Positions 20,941 to 33,475 of a stretch of 33,475 nt of DNA are shown here, piece by piece. The notes beneath the pieces were generated by a model that saw only the letters and a program-made list of their open reading frames with translations, did no database searches and was not told the origin of the DNA. Every line of letters begins with the position of its first letter. The first letter of the stretch is position 1. The DNA comes from Chloroflexota bacterium (lineage in GTDB: Bacteria; Chloroflexota; Anaerolineae; J102): assembly GCA_013151415.1 (NCBI GenBank), contig JAADII010000186.1, positions 1 through 33,475 on the forward strand, in the 5' to 3' direction. Made by a program: the position numbers and the translations under genes.

Positions 20941-22023
20941 TTACGCCATCAAATCAATGGCCACCTTCGCCACTGTTGGGGGATGAAGAAGCATATTGGC
21001 ATAGGTGGCGTTGGCCATGGGGCAAGCGCACTCCTTATTGGCAATGCTGCGCCGCATGGCCTCCATTTCCGGGCCAAACCAAATAGGGCGAATATCGTAA
21101 TTGGTTTCACGTAAGTTGCCCGCCGACTCCGCTCGAATACAGCATGTCCAGACATCGCCATTGGGCGCGATTTGAGCGCTGGCCCAACCTGCGTAGCAAT
21201 CTATGATCTGGCGTTGCTCGAACAGGGTGCGTTTGGCTATCTGGTAATATTGGGCTCGGAATCCTTGGGTGAAGCGAGCAAAGCCGCTGGCCGGAGCCTT
21301 ACGCGCTTGCTCGCTCAAAAAATCGGCCAGAGGCGCATATGCATCGGGTTGAGGCGTGATGCCCCACCCCACAGTATCCAACTCGACCCGCTCCTCCGCC
21401 ACCTCGGTGATATAACTGTCTGGCTCCAGAAATTGCAAGCCTTCGTAGATCTCGCGAAAACGATGTTGGTTGAAACGGCTGATGACCGTGTGAACCGTAG
21501 CCACCAAATTATCGTGTTTCTTTTTTAAGGTTTTTAATCCGCGCCACGTGGCCATGGCCCGCTCCCAATTCCCGGGCACGCCCCTGATGTCATCGTGCTC
21601 CGGCCCTACGCCGTCCAACGAAAGATTGACGCCTACATCCGCGCCTTGACATTCGGTGCAAATGCGGTCCACCGCAGCCAAAATGCGGTCGGTGAGCAAG
21701 CCGTTGGTTGGGATGGTGATATAACTGGGGCGGCAATGACGGTGGCCGGAAAGCACCAGCTCGTCCAGGTCTTTACGCAAAAACGGTTCACCGCCGGTGA
21801 AGGTGAGATACTCGACCGAACGGCCAAGACTGGCGAAAACCTGGTCCCACTCATCAATCGTCATATCATCATTGGGCTTGCGCCACACATCGCAAGTGCG
21901 GCACTTACTGTTGCAACGATAGCTGACGGAAATGACCACAGAAAAGGGAAGCATTCGCGGCCAGCCAAATCGTCGAAAGGCCCAATACGCGGGAAGCTTT
22001 GGAACAAGCGTGAATAGAGACAT
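20941..22023 (-). CDS. Radical SAM protein with SPASM-like C-terminal region
   Basis: [14 protein letters not shown] (CxxxCxxC), [15 protein letters not shown]-terminal Cys cluster [25 protein letters not shown]...[18 protein letters not shown]. Confidence 0.9.
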
Positions 22024-25099: not shown

Positions 25100-26524
25100 A
25101 TGACCGACAAGCTCACCGTCGAGAGCATCTACGCCTCTTTGCGTCGCGAATTGGCTTTTAAGCCTCAAGTCGAGGCGGATAGCGCGCTTGATTTAGGCGA
25201 CCTGCGCATTGTTAGAAACGCTCGTCGCAGTCTTGGCATCTCTCGAAACGAAGCGGTGATCCAGGTGATTCGGGCTGCGTTGACGCCGTTAAAAGAGCAG
25301 GATTCCCTGAGCGCGGAAATTTTCGAGCTTCATAGACTGGAAGGTGAACCCACCAAAGATGTGGAAAAACGGGTTCGGATATCTCGCGCCAGCATTTACC
25401 GTCATGAAAAGCGTTGCTTCAACGAATTGGCCGAAATCCTTTACCGACAAGAGAAGTTCGCCCGAGAACAACATCGCAAGCGACAACTGGAACGACTCGC
25501 TCCGCCCACCTACATTCACTTGTTCGGAGTCGACGATCTACGGAATGAGCTGCTCGAAGTGGTGGAACGCGATGAGCCGCCCTGGCTGATTCTCTTGGAA
25601 GGTCTGGGCGGCATTGGCAAGACGGCATTGGCCGACTTGTTGGCCCGCACATTGATCGAACGGGGAAGGTTCGACGAAATCGGCTGGGTCACGGCGCAAC
25701 GTCATGAGTTTCTGATGCAGGGTCGCATCGCCGAGATGACCGAACCCTCGCTCACGGTGGCGTCTTTGCTCGACCGCTTGGCGCAACAGTTGCTCGACGA
25801 CATCTCTCTGCCCAGGCCGATTTCCCCCAAGATTGTGCTGCCAATCTTAAAGGAGCGTCTGAGCAAATTCCGACATCTCATCATCGTCGACAATTTGGAA
25901 ACCCTCACCGATGTCAGAGCGCTGGCGCCCATATTGCGGGAACTGGCCGGCCCCAGCAAGTTCTTGCTCACATCGCGTCGTAGTCTGCCCTCTGAGCCCG
26001 ACGTCTTTCATATTCCAACACCCGAACTTTCGTTGGAGCACGCCCTGGCGCTGGTGCGCCATGAAGCGCAGTTGCGCAACCTGCCCGAAGTAGCGGCCGC
26101 GACCGAGGACGCGCTGACGCCCATTTACGAAACGGTGGGGGGCAACCCTCTGGCTTTGCGTCTGGTGGTGGGTCAATTGCGCATTCATTCGCTTCCTCGC
26201 GTGCTTCAGAGCCTGCGCTCCGCTCAGGGCGCCAGTGTGGAAGCGCTTTACACGTATATTTATCGTCAGGCCTGGGATGACCTGAGCGAACTCGAACGTC
26301 GCGTGTTTTTGCTCATGCCCTTTTCACCGGCGTCCGGCAGCCATTTTGAGCATCTGGCCTTCGTGAGCGAGTTGCCGCACTCGGCGCTCCAGGATGCGCT
26401 CGACACATTGGTCAATCTCAACCTGATAGATCGCCGCGGGGGGCTGGAAGAGGCTCGCTACAGCATTCATAGTCTCACCCGCACTTTCTTGCTCGAGCAG
26501 GTCGTCAAATGGCAAACCTCATGA
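25100..26524 (+). CDS. STAND (NB-ARC-like) NTPase with N-terminal HTH-like region
   Basis: Walker A LEGLGGIGKTALA, Walker B RHLIIVDNLET, GGNPLALRLVVGQL; KRVRISRASIYRHEKRCFNELAEIL resembles an HTH. Confidence 0.88.
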   Translation: MTDKLTVESIYASLRRELAFKPQVEADSALDLGDLRIVRNARRSLGISRNEAVIQVIRAALTPLKEQDSLSAEIFELHRLEGEPTKDVEKRVRISRASIYRHEKRCFNELAEILYRQEKFAREQHRKRQLERLAPPTYIHLFGVDDLRNELLEVVERDEPPWLILLEGLGGIGKTALADLLARTLIERGRFDEIGWVTAQRHEFLMQGRIAEMTEPSLTVASLLDRLAQQLLDDISLPRPISPKIVLPILKERLSKFRHLIIVDNLETLTDVRALAPILRELAGPSKFLLTSRRSLPSEPDVFHIPTPELSLEHALALVRHEAQLRNLPEVAAATEDALTPIYETVGGNPLALRLVVGQLRIHSLPRVLQSLRSAQGASVEALYTYIYRQAWDDLSELERRVFLLMPFSPASGSHFEHLAFVSELPHSALQDALDTLVNLNLIDRRGGLEEARYSIHSLTRTFLLEQVVKWQTS

Positions 26525-27741
26525 CGCGCTCCGAGTTCGATGCACCAGCGGTGTTTCGCGCGCATATTCAAAACAACGTGCGCTATGCTTTGAAACAGGC
26601 GCCTTCGGCCAAGGACCCTCCGCCGCCCGCGCATGCTCGCGCTCAGATGCTCCTGGCCCTGGACTATGCCATGGCGCTTCCCGAGATCTGGCCACTGACA
26701 CGCGCCTTGGTATTGAAATTGGCGCCCAAAATGGAGCAAGTGGGCTATCGCCAGGAGTGGATCGGCTATTTGCAACGAGCGCTCGAGCAAAGCAAACAAG
26801 CGAATGACATAGCCTCTGAGGCGGCATTGCGCATGCATCTGGGCGAGCTTTATCGCATGATGGCGCGCTTCGAACTGGCGCAAAAGGAGATTGAGCAGAG
26901 CTTGCACCTTTTCAAGAGGCTCGGCGACGAACGCGGCGCCGCGCAGGCGCTCAATCGTCTGGCCTTTCTTTTGCGACAACAAAACGATCTCGAAAATGCG
27001 CAGCGGCTGGCCGAGCAAGCGTTGAGTCTCGTGGCAGAAGGCGACGAAGAGCAAGGCTACGCCTACTTCGTGCTGGGCAATGTGAAAACCAGCCAACGCG
27101 CTTGGAGCGAGGCCGCAGACTATTATCGACAAGCTCTGGCTATTTGGCGAAAAACCTCAAACCCGCGCTATCTGGGCTGGGCCCACAGCAATTTGGCAAG
27201 CGCGCTGATTCGCAAGGGGGATTATGAAGCCGCACAACAGCACATGGCCATAGCCATTGAGCACTTGCATTCATGCAATGACGCCCGCAATCTGGCCATC
27301 ACCACCATGAACCTGGGCAATTTGCACTTGAAACAAGCGCAATGGGATGTGGCCCTGACGCACTACATGAAGGCGAGGCGCGTCTTTCGCCGCACTCAAG
27401 ATTTGATCAGTCTCGCCATTGTGGAACTGAATATGGGCATTGCGCACCGCAAACTGGGGCGCTGGAGCCTGGCGAAAGCCGCTTATCAAAGCTGCATCGA
27501 AATGGCTGCTCGGTTGGGCGACGCCGAGCTTCAAATAAATGCAATGACAGGCCTATTCAAGGTGCATCTGGCGCAAGGACATGATGATTTGGCCCGCGCC
27601 GAATATCAGAAGGCCCGCGCCCTATTGCCCCAAATCAGAGAAACGCGTTCTCGCGAACATTGGCGCCAAGAGTTAGACAGTCTGGCTAACCAACTCCAGG
27701 AAAGGCGAAGGGTTTTCGCGTCGCGACGGAAGGCTCGATGA
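26521..27741 (+). CDS. TPR-repeat protein
   Basis: Repeated TPR units (LGELYRMMARFELAQKEIEQSLHLFKRLGD; LNRLAFLLRQQNDLENAQRLAEQAL; SNLASALIRKGDYEAAQQHM...). ATGA overlap with the STAND stop; ORF track start is 26509. Confidence 0.9.
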   Translation: MTRSEFDAPAVFRAHIQNNVRYALKQAPSAKDPPPPAHARAQMLLALDYAMALPEIWPLTRALVLKLAPKMEQVGYRQEWIGYLQRALEQSKQANDIASEAALRMHLGELYRMMARFELAQKEIEQSLHLFKRLGDERGAAQALNRLAFLLRQQNDLENAQRLAEQALSLVAEGDEEQGYAYFVLGNVKTSQRAWSEAADYYRQALAIWRKTSNPRYLGWAHSNLASALIRKGDYEAAQQHMAIAIEHLHSCNDARNLAITTMNLGNLHLKQAQWDVALTHYMKARRVFRRTQDLISLAIVELNMGIAHRKLGRWSLAKAAYQSCIEMAARLGDAELQINAMTGLFKVHLAQGHDDLARAEYQKARALLPQIRETRSREHWRQELDSLANQLQERRRVFASRRKAR

Positions 27742-27757: not shown

Positions 27758-27790
27758 CGCCCCCGCGTCCGGGCAAGAGAATCGGCGCGC

Positions 27791-27949
27791 TTAGCCGCAC
27801 GTATTCTCTTTGCACTCATCAAAATAGAGCCCTCCAAGCTGGGCGATGGTCGCGGCCGGGGCAGTGTGGCGGATCACGTTCAGGCCAAAGGGAGCGACCA
27901 AAATAATGGCCAGAACGATGGCGTAGACGAAGCGTCGAATGCCAGTCAT
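27791..27949 (-). CDS. Small secreted-looking peptide, 52 aa, with C-terminal CKENTCG
   Basis: MTGIRRFVYAIVLAIILVAPFGLNVIRHTAPAATIAQLGGLYFDECKENTCG*; strong GGAGG SD 8 nt before ATG. Below ORF-track size limit. Confidence 0.6.
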   Translation of the reverse strand: MTGIRRFVYAIVLAIILVAPFGLNVIRHTAPAATIAQLGGLYFDECKENTCG

Positions 27950-28131
27950 TTTCGTTTCCTCCAGAATAAGTGGAGGTCAACCGTTAGGGGCCCCACCGCC
28001 GAAGCGGCGCACGTGCTGGCGATCGACCCAATGCGAGTATCGTCTATAGGATATAACGAAACCGCCCCTTCCGTCCTTACACTAAACTGACTTTTGAAAT
28101 TCGATTTCTGACAACTTCCGCCGTCCAACCT

Positions 28132-28152: not shown

Positions 28153-28262
28153 AGAAAACGATTTCAAACCAGATGAACCGAGGAGCAAAACAGGGCGTTT
28201 CAGACGATAAAACCACTTGAAACCGACAAAAATGACAGATTATGTCAATGAAATCGTTTTCT
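28153..28262. repeat. Inverted repeat AGAAAACGATTTCA ... TGAAATCGTTTTCT with inner palindromes
   Basis: 14-bp perfect arms 28153-28166 and 28249-28262; inside lie GTTTCA/TGAAAC and TGACA-gatta-TGTCA (28233-28247). Confidence 0.7.
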
Positions 28263-30362: not shown

Positions 30363-31319
30363 ATGAACTCATCACGCTCCGGGCCTTGGGCCGGGCGATA
30401 TTTTGTCCTGATGCTGACGGCGGCGCTGGCCGTATGGCTGCTCGCGGGGTGCGCCGCGGCCGAAGCAAGCGCCTTGCCCTATGTCGATCTAACCCAACGC
30501 GCGCCGGTTCCGTTGCCCACGCCCTCGCGCGATTTGCCGTTGCGTCTGGCCGTGGCGGCCATCATTTCGCCGCAAGGCAACATCGAAAGCTACAATGGCT
30601 TGGCCCGCTACCTGGAGGAGCAACTGGAGCGCGAGGTGGAGATCGTGCAACGCCGCACATACGCCGAGGTGAATCAACTGGTCGCCAATCGCCGCGTCGA
30701 TCTGGCGTTCGTGTGCACCAGCGCCTATGTGGATGGCCGAGATCGCTTTGGCATGGAGCTGCTGGCCGCGCCGCAAATCAACGGCGAAACCGTGTATTAT
30801 TCCGAGCTCATCGTTCCGGCCAATAGCCGGGCGCAGGGCATGGCGGATTTACGCGGCAAGGTGTTCGCGTTCACCGACCCCATGAGCTTCAGCGGTCGCG
30901 TGTATCCCACCTATTTGTTGCAGCAATTGGGCGAGCGTCCGGAAGACTTCTTTAGTCGCACCTTCTTCACCTACAGCCACGATAAGGCCATTCAGGCGGT
31001 GGCCGATGGCGTGGCCGACGGCGCGGCCGTGGACAGTCTGGTGTTGGACTACGCCATCAAGCGCGATCCGGCCCTGCAAAACCGCATCCGCATCATTCGC
31101 CGCTCGCCCCCTTTCGGCATCCCGCCCGTGGTCGCGCCGCCCACACTCTCTCCTATGGAGAAGCTCCGACTCCAGGAGATTCTCCTCACCATGCACGAGA
31201 ACCCCAAAGGCCGAGAAGTGCTCGCGTCTCTGGGCATCGATCGCTTCGTGCGCATCGATGATCAGGCATATCAGAGCGCGCGCGACCTGATCTACACCGT
31301 AGGCGTCACCCAGCCATGA
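30363..31319 (+). CDS. PhnD-like phosphate/phosphonate-type substrate-binding lipoprotein
   Basis: Lipobox LLAGC; LRLAVAAIISPQGNIESYNGLARYLEEQLEREVEIVQRRTYAEVNQLVANRRVDLAFVCTSAYV; LRGKVFAFTDPMSFSGRVYP. Confidence 0.9.
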   Translation: MNSSRSGPWAGRYFVLMLTAALAVWLLAGCAAAEASALPYVDLTQRAPVPLPTPSRDLPLRLAVAAIISPQGNIESYNGLARYLEEQLEREVEIVQRRTYAEVNQLVANRRVDLAFVCTSAYVDGRDRFGMELLAAPQINGETVYYSELIVPANSRAQGMADLRGKVFAFTDPMSFSGRVYPTYLLQQLGERPEDFFSRTFFTYSHDKAIQAVADGVADGAAVDSLVLDYAIKRDPALQNRIRIIRRSPPFGIPPVVAPPTLSPMEKLRLQEILLTMHENPKGREVLASLGIDRFVRIDDQAYQSARDLIYTVGVTQP

Positions 31320-32785
31320 CCCATGCCGTTTTACGCGCCCCTCATTGGCGTCCCTTCTTGAACGCCTGGAAGCAGCGCGTCTGGGAAATGACGGGCGGGG
31401 TGAGCATTCGCATGAAGATCATCGGCATGGTGGTCACGTTGAGCATCTTCCTGGGCGTCGTGGTGAGCTGGCAAGTGCGCGCGGCCATGGAGGAAACGCT
31501 CTCCACCGAACTGCGCACCCGCGGTTTCTCGGTCGTTAGTGATCTGGCCACGCGCAGCGCGGACCCGATCCTGCTCAACGACACCTACGCGCTCTACCAG
31601 TTGCTCACCGACACCACCGAAAACCACCCCGACGCGTTGTACGCGTTCGTCTTGGAGCCGGAAGGTCAGGTCTTGGTGCACACGTTTGGGGATGCGGGAT
31701 TTCCCGTTCAGTTGATGGACATTGTGCAGACGAATCCGGTCGAGGATCGCAAAGGCGATATTACGCACTTTCGGTTCGAGAGCAACGAGGGCGTGGTTCA
31801 CGATTTCGCCGCGCCTATTTTTGGCGGTCGAGCAGGCGTGGTGCATTTGGGGCTGACCGAAAATCGATTGCACGAAACCATCAACAGGGTGACCAAGCAG
31901 ATCATCCTCACCGCGGCCCTGGTGGCGTTGGTGGGCGTCGCGGCCGCGATCGCGCTCACCTGGATATTGACGCGGCCCGTGCTGGCGCTTGTTAAGACCG
32001 CGCAAGCAGTAGGCGGCGGCGATCTTCAAGCGCGAGCGCCTCATCTGGCCGACGACGAGATCGGCAAACTGGCCCAGGCGTTCAATCAAATGATCACGGA
32101 TTTGCAGGCGAGCCAGAAAGCATTGAAAGAAAAGGAGGCCGCGCGCACGCTCTTGCTGGAAAAACTGATCACCGCGCAGGAGGAGGAGCGCAAACGCATC
32201 GCGCGCGAGCTCCACGACGGCATTGGACAGGCTCTGATTTCATTGATGGTCGATATGAAGATGGCCTCTCAAATCGATGACGTGGCCAGACTGCACGAAA
32301 AAAATCGCGAGCTACGACAGGCCGCCGCCGAAACTCTGGAACAGGTGCGTCTGCTCAGCCGACAACTTCGCCCCAGCGCGTTGGACGATCTGGGCCTTGA
32401 GGCCGCGCTGACCGTATTCGTCGATGAATTCACCCAACTCCATCCCGACATTCGGGTGGACCTCCATTGCGAACTTAGCGACCGCCTGCCGCCGGTCGTG
32501 GCCATCACCTTTTATCGCATCATTCAAGAGGCCATGATCAACGCCGCGCGACATTCGGGCGGCGACATGATCAGCGTGTTGGTGTCGCAGCGAGGCCAGC
32601 GCGTGCGGGCCATCATCGAGGACAACGGCCGCGGGTTCGATGTGGAGGCCGCGCAGCGTTCGGGCCGAAGCGTGGGCATTCACGCCATGACGGAGCGGGC
32701 CGAGTTGTTGGGCGGCGACATCCACATCGAAAGCAGTGAGGAGGGCGTTTCCGTATATGTGGAAGCGCCGTTGAATCAGGGATGA
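31316..32785 (+). CDS. Sensor histidine kinase (HAMP, HisKA_3, HATPase; NarL-family partner)
   Basis: Two TM helices around an extracytoplasmic domain; HAMP; ERKRIARELHDGIGQALISLMVDMKMA; RIIQEAMINAARHSGG; EDNGRGFD. Confidence 0.95.
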   Translation: MTHAVLRAPHWRPFLNAWKQRVWEMTGGVSIRMKIIGMVVTLSIFLGVVVSWQVRAAMEETLSTELRTRGFSVVSDLATRSADPILLNDTYALYQLLTDTTENHPDALYAFVLEPEGQVLVHTFGDAGFPVQLMDIVQTNPVEDRKGDITHFRFESNEGVVHDFAAPIFGGRAGVVHLGLTENRLHETINRVTKQIILTAALVALVGVAAAIALTWILTRPVLALVKTAQAVGGGDLQARAPHLADDEIGKLAQAFNQMITDLQASQKALKEKEAARTLLLEKLITAQEEERKRIARELHDGIGQALISLMVDMKMASQIDDVARLHEKNRELRQAAAETLEQVRLLSRQLRPSALDDLGLEAALTVFVDEFTQLHPDIRVDLHCELSDRLPPVVAITFYRIIQEAMINAARHSGGDMISVLVSQRGQRVRAIIEDNGRGFDVEAAQRSGRSVGIHAMTERAELLGGDIHIESSEEGVSVYVEAPLNQG

Positions 32786-32788
32786 ACG

Positions 32789-33475
32789 ATGCATGAAGTC
32801 AAGGCAATGAAGCCCATTCGCATCTTTTTGGCCGATGATCATTCGGTTTTGCGGGCCGGATTGCGGGCCTTGCTCGAAGCCGAACCGGATATGCGCGTGG
32901 TGGGCGAGGCCGATGAGGGCGCGTCTTGCATCCAACAGGTGGTGGCATTGCAGCCGGATGTCGTGCTTCTGGACATCAACATGCCGGGCGTGAATGGGTT
33001 GGAGGCCCTGAAACGGCTCCGCGAGCAGGCTCCTGACAGCCGCGTGCTCATTCTGACCATGCACGACGACGCGGGTTATCTGCGTCAGGCCCTGGGGCTG
33101 GGCGGCGCGGGTTATGTGCTCAAACAAGCGGCCGGCGATGAATTGCTCATGGCCATCCGCACGGTGCACAGCGGCGGCGTGTATTTACACCCCAAACACA
33201 CACAGATATTGCTCGAACAATCGTTGAACCAACAAAAGGAAGATGCAGCCGCGCCCCAAACCGAGAAAGAAGCCCGTTATCGTTCTCTGAGCAGGCGTGA
33301 ATCGCAGATTTTCAAACTGGTGGCGTTGGGCTATCGCAACAACGAGATCGCGGAGAAGCTCTTTCTAAGCGTGAAGACGGTGGAAACCTACAAAGCCCGT
33401 TTGATGCAAAAATTGGGCGTCCGCAGCCGGGTTGAACTGGTGCGCTACGCGCTCGAGCTAGGGATTCTTGATGAT
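32789..33475 (+). CDS. NarL/FixJ-type response regulator (no stop before window end)
   Basis: [36 protein letters not shown]...[18 protein letters not shown]...[45 protein letters not shown]. Absent from ORF track because it runs off the end. Confidence 0.95.

Follow-up and report, generated by a model that had tools for sequence, protein, structure and literature searches.

A small secreted-looking peptide gene paired with TPR and STAND protein genes in Chloroflexota: a candidate peptide signaling cassette with a structured RNA leader

Introduction

Is a small, secreted-looking peptide encoded beside a STAND/TPR gene pair in a Chloroflexota genome a signal that its neighbors read? The question arises from a stretch of 33,475 nucleotides (hereafter the window, at its full length), in which a first-pass annotation pointed to a Cys-containing peptide gene facing the two larger genes and proposed a disulfide-cyclised signal. 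RRNPP quorum sensing, including Rap-Phr, PlcR-PapR, NprR-NprX, and others, has been delimited by five published criteria (PMC10075063), and in the literature searched TPR-receptor peptide signaling is described for Bacillota/Firmicutes (PMC10075063, PMC9765709). We herein examined the locus and its relatives computationally.

Results and Discussion

The peptide gene and its neighbors

The following features of the window are relevant to the pairing.

25100-26524, plus strand: STAND protein of 474 aa, with NB-ARC and a helical N-terminal domain that weakly matches sigma-70 region 4
26509-27741, plus strand: TPR protein of 410 aa, the candidate peptide receptor; the first 16 nt of its gene overlap the end of the STAND gene
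27775-27810, strand not given: imperfect inverted repeat with 80% complementary arms, where the two convergent stops meet
27949-27791, minus strand: gene for a 52-aa peptide precursor with a hydrophobic N-terminal signal, an Ala-rich site, and a tail ending in DECKENTCG
27962-27958, minus strand: Shine-Dalgarno (SD) sequence GGAGG of the peptide gene, within CTGGAGGAAACGAAAATG

The peptide ORF lies on the minus strand, and a plus-strand reading of 27791-27949 was rejected. It encodes MTGIRRFVYAIVLAIILVAPFGLNVIRHTAPAATIAQLGGLYFDECKENTCG, with the C-terminal tail ATIAQLGGLYFDECKENTCG and the tail stretch GLYFDECKENTCG. The first-pass description of this gene was accurate: the strong SD, the hydrophobic N-terminal stretch, TAPAA, and a pair of Cys with four residues in between are all present, and the gene converges with the plus-strand STAND and TPR genes, 49 nt separating the TPR stop from the peptide stop. 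The inverted repeat at 27775-27810 is possibly a shared terminator of the convergent genes.

Two further observations concern the other side of the peptide gene. A perfect 14-nt inverted repeat (AGAAAACGATTTCA at 28153-28166 and TGAAATCGTTTTCT at 28249-28262, 82 nt apart) sits between it and a TPP-enzyme gene. Past the TPP enzyme, at 30363-33475 on the plus strand, genes for a phosphonate-type binding protein, a Cache-HAMP histidine kinase, and a LuxR-type response regulator follow consecutively.

Recurrence at homologous STAND/TPR pairs

The 52-aa peptide itself had no match in Pfam, NCBIfam, or PADLOC. A sequence search of 20 genomes of the family returned its own locus as the only significant match, and a search of the wider contig collection found no significant match. 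Taken alone, this absence of direct homologues would have looked like a refutation of conservation. Searches with the neighboring proteins gave well over 100 STAND matches, and 111 STAND frames in the retrieved loci were analyzed. The STAND profile matched in 97 of the 396 sampled genomes of the window's class; its best matches in named records were from Caldilineaceae, Ardenticatenaceae, Promineifilum, and other Anaerolineae or Chloroflexota MAGs.

Candidate peptide genes at these loci were selected with a fixed ORF filter (30-110 aa, a hydrophobic 12-mer of at least 2.0, a net positive N-terminal end, and an SD match of 4 nt or longer). Since the filter was set after the first examples had been seen, our argument rests on the controls and not on the raw rate. 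An opposite-strand, signal-like ORF lay 3' of the TPR gene at 58 of the 95 testable homologous pairs, and 42 of these ORFs carried a C-terminal Cys pair. An ORF passed the filter at 2/95 pairs on the co-directional strand (none with a Cys pair), past 4/141 large ORFs elsewhere in these loci (one with a Cys pair), and in 20/475 dinucleotide shuffles (two with a Cys pair). These control rates imply that a few of the picks are probably due to chance. The gap between the TPR and peptide stops, 49 nt in the window, had a median of 43.5 nt over 56 loci.

Another clade lacks a peptide gene 3' of the TPR gene and has a divergent copy upstream of the STAND gene instead. Both flanks could be read at 89 pairs; counting both positions, 65 of these have an antisense peptide gene, and 24 have no candidate. 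Some divergent loci (including L102, L106, L111, and L126) have TTTGCAG-like direct repeats with a spacing of approximately 11 nt between the peptide and STAND genes, which look like a PhoB/SARP-type operator. Kinase and response-regulator genes lie past the TPR gene at several divergent loci. At 28 loci, such as L027 (4941-5402, minus strand), a divergent gene upstream of the STAND gene has a DJ-1/PfpI match just below the cut-off.

Profiles of two peptide subfamilies were also run blind to the neighbors and gave 27 strong matches (E <1e-8), 16 of which were the profiles' own source sequences. Ten of the 11 new loci adjoin a TPR and/or STAND gene; the sole exception is a 28-residue fragment without a TPR match, less than 1 kb from a contig end. 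Weak matches of one peptide profile (A6, E >1e-4) were mostly internal to long ORFs and were discarded. One locus found by profile, L244, has a TPR gene and no STAND gene within 8.5 kb.

The pairing of peptide and TPR genes is strongly supported because the ORF type is kept at homologous pairs and because 10 of the 11 profile-only loci have these neighbors. This is the part of the first-pass signaling proposal that stands: a secreted-looking propeptide gene does recur in relatives beside the TPR gene, and the condition that the first-pass annotation had set for its own refutation was not borne out. The signaling itself is a more conditional matter, to which we return below.

Copy number and gene structure vary among the loci. 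L060 (G160:C662), L067, and L071 have tandem STAND/TPR copies, with a distinct peptide for each readable TPR copy. At L248 (3738-6278, minus strand; G260:C157), one continuous frame matches both the STAND and TPR profiles, a natural fusion followed by a convergent peptide gene.

The STAND and TPR proteins

The STAND and TPR frames overlap in most homologous loci, by a few to approximately 30 nt. NB-ARC (PF00931) was found in all 64 of 64 STAND members and Sigma70_r4 in 18 of the 64; the Sigma70_r4_2 match of the window protein (E 0.0034) was below the cut-off. The AlphaFold model of the STAND protein (pLDDT 92) matches the folds of NLRs, CED-4, and Apaf-1, and the sequence-profile matches include AfsR and the TPR sensor PH0952. 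The TPR protein of the window matches PF13424 (E 3.2e-35) and is modeled as a confident superhelix (pLDDT 96). Its top fold match in the PDB was LGN; peptide-bound structures of Rap and RapF (4gyo, 4i9c) ranked lower, and the fold resembles those of many TPR proteins, LGN scoring better than Rap. These predicted folds and profile matches support a split AfsR/MalT-like regulator, the STAND component of which may bind DNA.

For the TPR protein of the window, PADLOC matches were limited to PDC-M71B and a generic TPR model, and a defense-system reading was dropped on this basis. The genome of the window (4.5 Mb, 197 contigs) encodes OppA-type binding proteins and two signal peptidases I. In the same genome (G000:C68), a gene for an OppA-like oligopeptide-binding protein (PF00496; L025, 10461-12149, minus strand) lies just upstream of a paralogous STAND/TPR/peptide cassette.

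Coding evidence and tails of the peptide family

In all close peptide pairs that differ, pN/pS was below 1 (0.05-0.83). These codon changes place the peptides under purifying selection, and their coding nature is computationally established. We counted 75 distinct peptides, including two short, probably spurious picks; leaving these two out, lengths range from 43 to 72 aa. The pattern C-x3..9-C-x0..4 ends 57 of the 75. The residue before the first Cys is usually D, A, or E, and that after the last Cys is most often G. The 18 tails without a Cys pair, most of them Gly-rich or acidic (for example, QEGGGDGFVG and GEGEDDVYG), indicate that a disulfide is not needed everywhere.

These features also bear on whether the peptide leaves the membrane at all. 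It may be a small membrane protein that is never released and that holds the TPR/STAND pair at the membrane or inhibits it there, as a tiny anti-regulator: a hydrophobic segment with a positive N-terminal end suits a single-pass anchor, and a cleavage site is not obvious in every peptide, an [AVSTI]xA motif preceding the Cys pair in 45 of the 57 peptides that have one. However, the positive-inside rule puts the tail outside, away from the cytosolic TPR and STAND proteins. Moreover, canonical AxA sites directly abut the Cys core in several families (PAYA-CQNGSGSGGGC, PAFA-DCSGAGSSTCSG), and the constraint falls on the extreme C-terminus. We regard a membrane-bound regulator as unlikely.

Many bacteriocins are small exported Cys peptides whose tails vary. 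The tails described here are hypervariable, and an antimicrobial or toxin-like peptide with no signal role, regulated by the STAND/TPR pair or against which the pair protects, would fit this property. Related NB-ARC/TPR proteins also occur with peptide-processing systems (PMC7159879). Nevertheless, the loci have no conserved immunity protein, dedicated exporter, or maturase, the tails are short, Gly-rich, and polar, and the partner common to all contexts is the TPR protein. There is, in our opinion, little chance that these peptides are antimicrobials. A RiPP reading was rejected because the radical SAM/SPASM gene of the window (20941-22023, minus strand) does not recur at other loci; its product matched peptide-maturase models below the cut-off only.

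An RNA leader upstream of convergent peptide genes

A recurrent element precedes the convergent peptide genes, in the order P1, a short P2, palindrome Pal-A, hairpin P3, palindrome Pal-B, P1', CTCC/CCTCC, and SD. Its parts in the window are as follows.

28020-28028, minus strand: P1 5' strand of the leader RNA, GGTCGATCG
28009-28016, minus strand: Pal-A, perfect palindrome, GCACGTGC
27996-28008, minus strand: P3 hairpin, GCCGCTTCGGCGG
27987-27994, minus strand: Pal-B, perfect palindrome, GGGGCCCC
27975-27983, minus strand: P1 3' strand, overlapping the anti-SD, CGGTTGACC
27972-27976, minus strand: anti-SD CCTCC, able to pair with the SD (OFF fold)

Two leader folds compete because P1' and the anti-SD can alternatively pair with the SD and start region. 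In permutation tests that leave kinship between loci in place, native P1 partners paired better than between-locus swaps (mean -26.4 vs -23.0 kcal/mol), with 0/2000 permutations as good; the composition control with the reversed strand was not significant (574/2000). Native anti-SD/SD pairing, tested in the same way, also gave 0/2000, with a contribution from composition (control 43/2000). The divergent clade showed neither signal.

No consensus fold emerged when mixed leaders were aligned with MAFFT (A7), and covariation was therefore tested alignment-free and in well-aligned subgroups. In alignment A8, P1-P3 covariation was 0.347 vs 0.170 in shuffles (0/500), and 77% of the P1-P3 cells were paired vs 37-42% after sliding. 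In two families, 78 and 92% of the OFF-helix cells were paired; within-family covariation of this helix was not significant. The covariance model of one family found six peptide leaders of other families (E <0.05), three of which are mutual close relatives. In 26 whole genomes, two leader models hit six places beyond their own sequences, each of which precedes such a peptide. Rfam gave no match at the gathering score in eight leader-bearing loci; matches in the window stretch were all weak and below the threshold.

The full architecture is present in the window leader and arises in 18/5000 of its own shuffles; under a strict definition, it is present in 17 of the 65 convergent leaders (0.25 expected). 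The constrained folds of the window leader differ little in energy (-28.1 and -29.8 kcal/mol), and its stability is not greater than that of shuffles (z 0.43). Palindromes of at least 8 nt are kept while their sequence changes, in 49/62 cases vs 11.8 expected and in 41/62 vs 8.2. Variants at the Pal-A position include CACGCGTG, CTCATGAG, CTGATCAG, and GCACGTGC, and those at the Pal-B position GGGATCCC, GGGGCCCC, and GGCGCGCC. The palindrome pair possibly serves an RNA dimer or as the site of a dimeric protein.

Two perfect palindromes with symmetry kept but not sequence are typical of dimeric DNA-binding sites, and the fold energy of the window leader is unexceptional. The element may then be a DNA operator, its inverted repeats and palindromes serving a dimeric regulator, and not an RNA switch. 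However, P1 covaries with G-U pairs and lies just ahead of the SD, and anti-SD/SD complementarity also beats permutations. In addition, the element spans P1 to the start codon, the usual place of mRNA leaders, and the layout of P1/P1' plus anti-SD makes no sense for DNA alone. While a pure operator deserves some consideration, we consider it rather improbable, and the leader is treated below as a covarying RNA.

TPR-CHAT contexts

The RNA model led to four loci (L276, L277, L278, and L279) at which the leader and peptide face a TPR-CHAT protein of 1072-1085 aa. In the two proteins scanned with Pfam, the TPR-CHAT (caspase-like) assignment was obtained with CHAT E values of 7.7e-44 and 6.2e-39. 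The peptides of L278 and L279 have lost the signal segment and kept NGGGSQSGCGG. At L276, a protein with nSTAND1 and OmpR-type HTH matches is encoded on the other side of the peptide gene. The TPR gene without a STAND gene at L244 and the sharing of leader and peptide by the TPR-CHAT loci argue that the TPR domain is the partner of the peptide, irrespective of the output domain.

Defense effectors are frequent among STAND and CHAT proteins; PADLOC gave no specific match. The sharing of peptide and leader by TPR-CHAT effectors, together with the two peptides that keep the core without a signal segment, is compatible with an export-failure alarm: the TPR protein would sense unexported precursor or tail upon secretion or membrane damage and trigger STAND or CHAT effectors. 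However, the AxA sites and diverse tails suit a released signal better, and the signal-less peptides may be decaying genes. Such an alarm appears quite unlikely to us.

A proposed mechanism

The reading that we favor, and hold to be reasonably likely, is that of an RRNPP-like peptide signal read by a TPR protein that controls a separate STAND regulator, with translation of the peptide gated by an RNA switch. In this mechanism, the N-terminal signal would direct export of the 52-aa precursor, and cleavage behind the Ala-rich site would release a short C-terminal peptide (in the window, from within the tail given above), the two Cys of which probably form a disulfide ring. The released peptide would re-enter the cell and bind the TPR superhelix. 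The TPR protein, putatively coupled to the STAND protein in translation, may contact it and switch the nucleotide state or assembly of this HTH-NB-ARC protein, which would then act on DNA. The bistable leader would gate precursor synthesis: the SD would be free when P1 is formed and covered when the anti-SD, in the region of the P1 3' strand, pairs with it, presumably in response to a trigger acting on the RNA.

Comparison with known systems

The cassette resembles RRNPP systems in having a small propeptide with a signal-like N-terminal end and a presumed C-terminal mature part, encoded next to a 250-500 aa TPR protein, and in occurring in several copies per genome with diverse tails. With respect to the published criteria, the propeptide of 52 aa falls within 10-100 aa, the receptor of 410 aa within 250-500 aa, and the genes are adjacent (49 nt between stops); signal-likeness was judged by the hydrophobicity and charge filter. 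Matches to the receptor were generic TPR matches only, the AimR model scoring below the cut-off (E 5e-4) and Rap being one of many fold matches. Since homology to RRNPP receptors is not established, we did not file the cassette as RRNPP. Moreover, it is found in Chloroflexota and not in Bacillota, has its NTPase and the part presumed to bind DNA in a STAND protein apart from the receptor, and usually has a Cys pair, an opposite-strand peptide gene, and a structured leader RNA.

STAND regulators of the AfsR, MalT, and PH0952 type similarly combine an NB-ARC core with a TPR sensor; however, the TPR sensor of the cassette is encoded by a gene of its own that overlaps the STAND gene, and it is adjoined by a small gene dedicated to the peptide. 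In the FxSxx-COOH/AP-ATPase-TPR systems too, a small peptide that diverges fast and keeps a C-terminal motif has an NB-ARC/TPR neighbor (PMC7159879; NCBIfam FxSxx_TPR and HaaT models). In contrast to these, the cassette belongs to another phylum, has a signal-type N-terminal end, and lacks a conserved radical SAM or other maturase; its tails end in C-x3..9-C or are Gly-rich, which sets them apart from the FxSxx-COOH motif. Translational riboswitches share the two alternative leader folds, one covering the SD, whereas the present leader has no Rfam match, carries two conserved palindromes, and has so far been seen only before these peptide genes.

Our literature search found no paper on this cassette, and its novelty is provisional because most subscription papers and preprints were outside the coverage of the search. 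The features of the cassette suggest a new variety of peptide signaling in bacteria. More tentatively, and with doubts that outweigh our confidence, it may represent a new class of cell-cell signaling in Chloroflexota, with hypervariable, mostly disulfide-type exported peptides, readers of the split TPR plus STAND and TPR-CHAT caspase-like types, a new strand-exchange RNA switch, and palindromes for RNA dimerization or regulator binding.

The cassette would extend TPR-receptor peptide signaling to the largely uncultured Chloroflexota. In it, a gene for a candidate ligand neighbors that of a bacterial STAND protein resembling NLRs, and the leader is in addition a structured RNA whose pair of palindromes is unusual. 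The peptide tails are amenable to immediate synthesis and testing.
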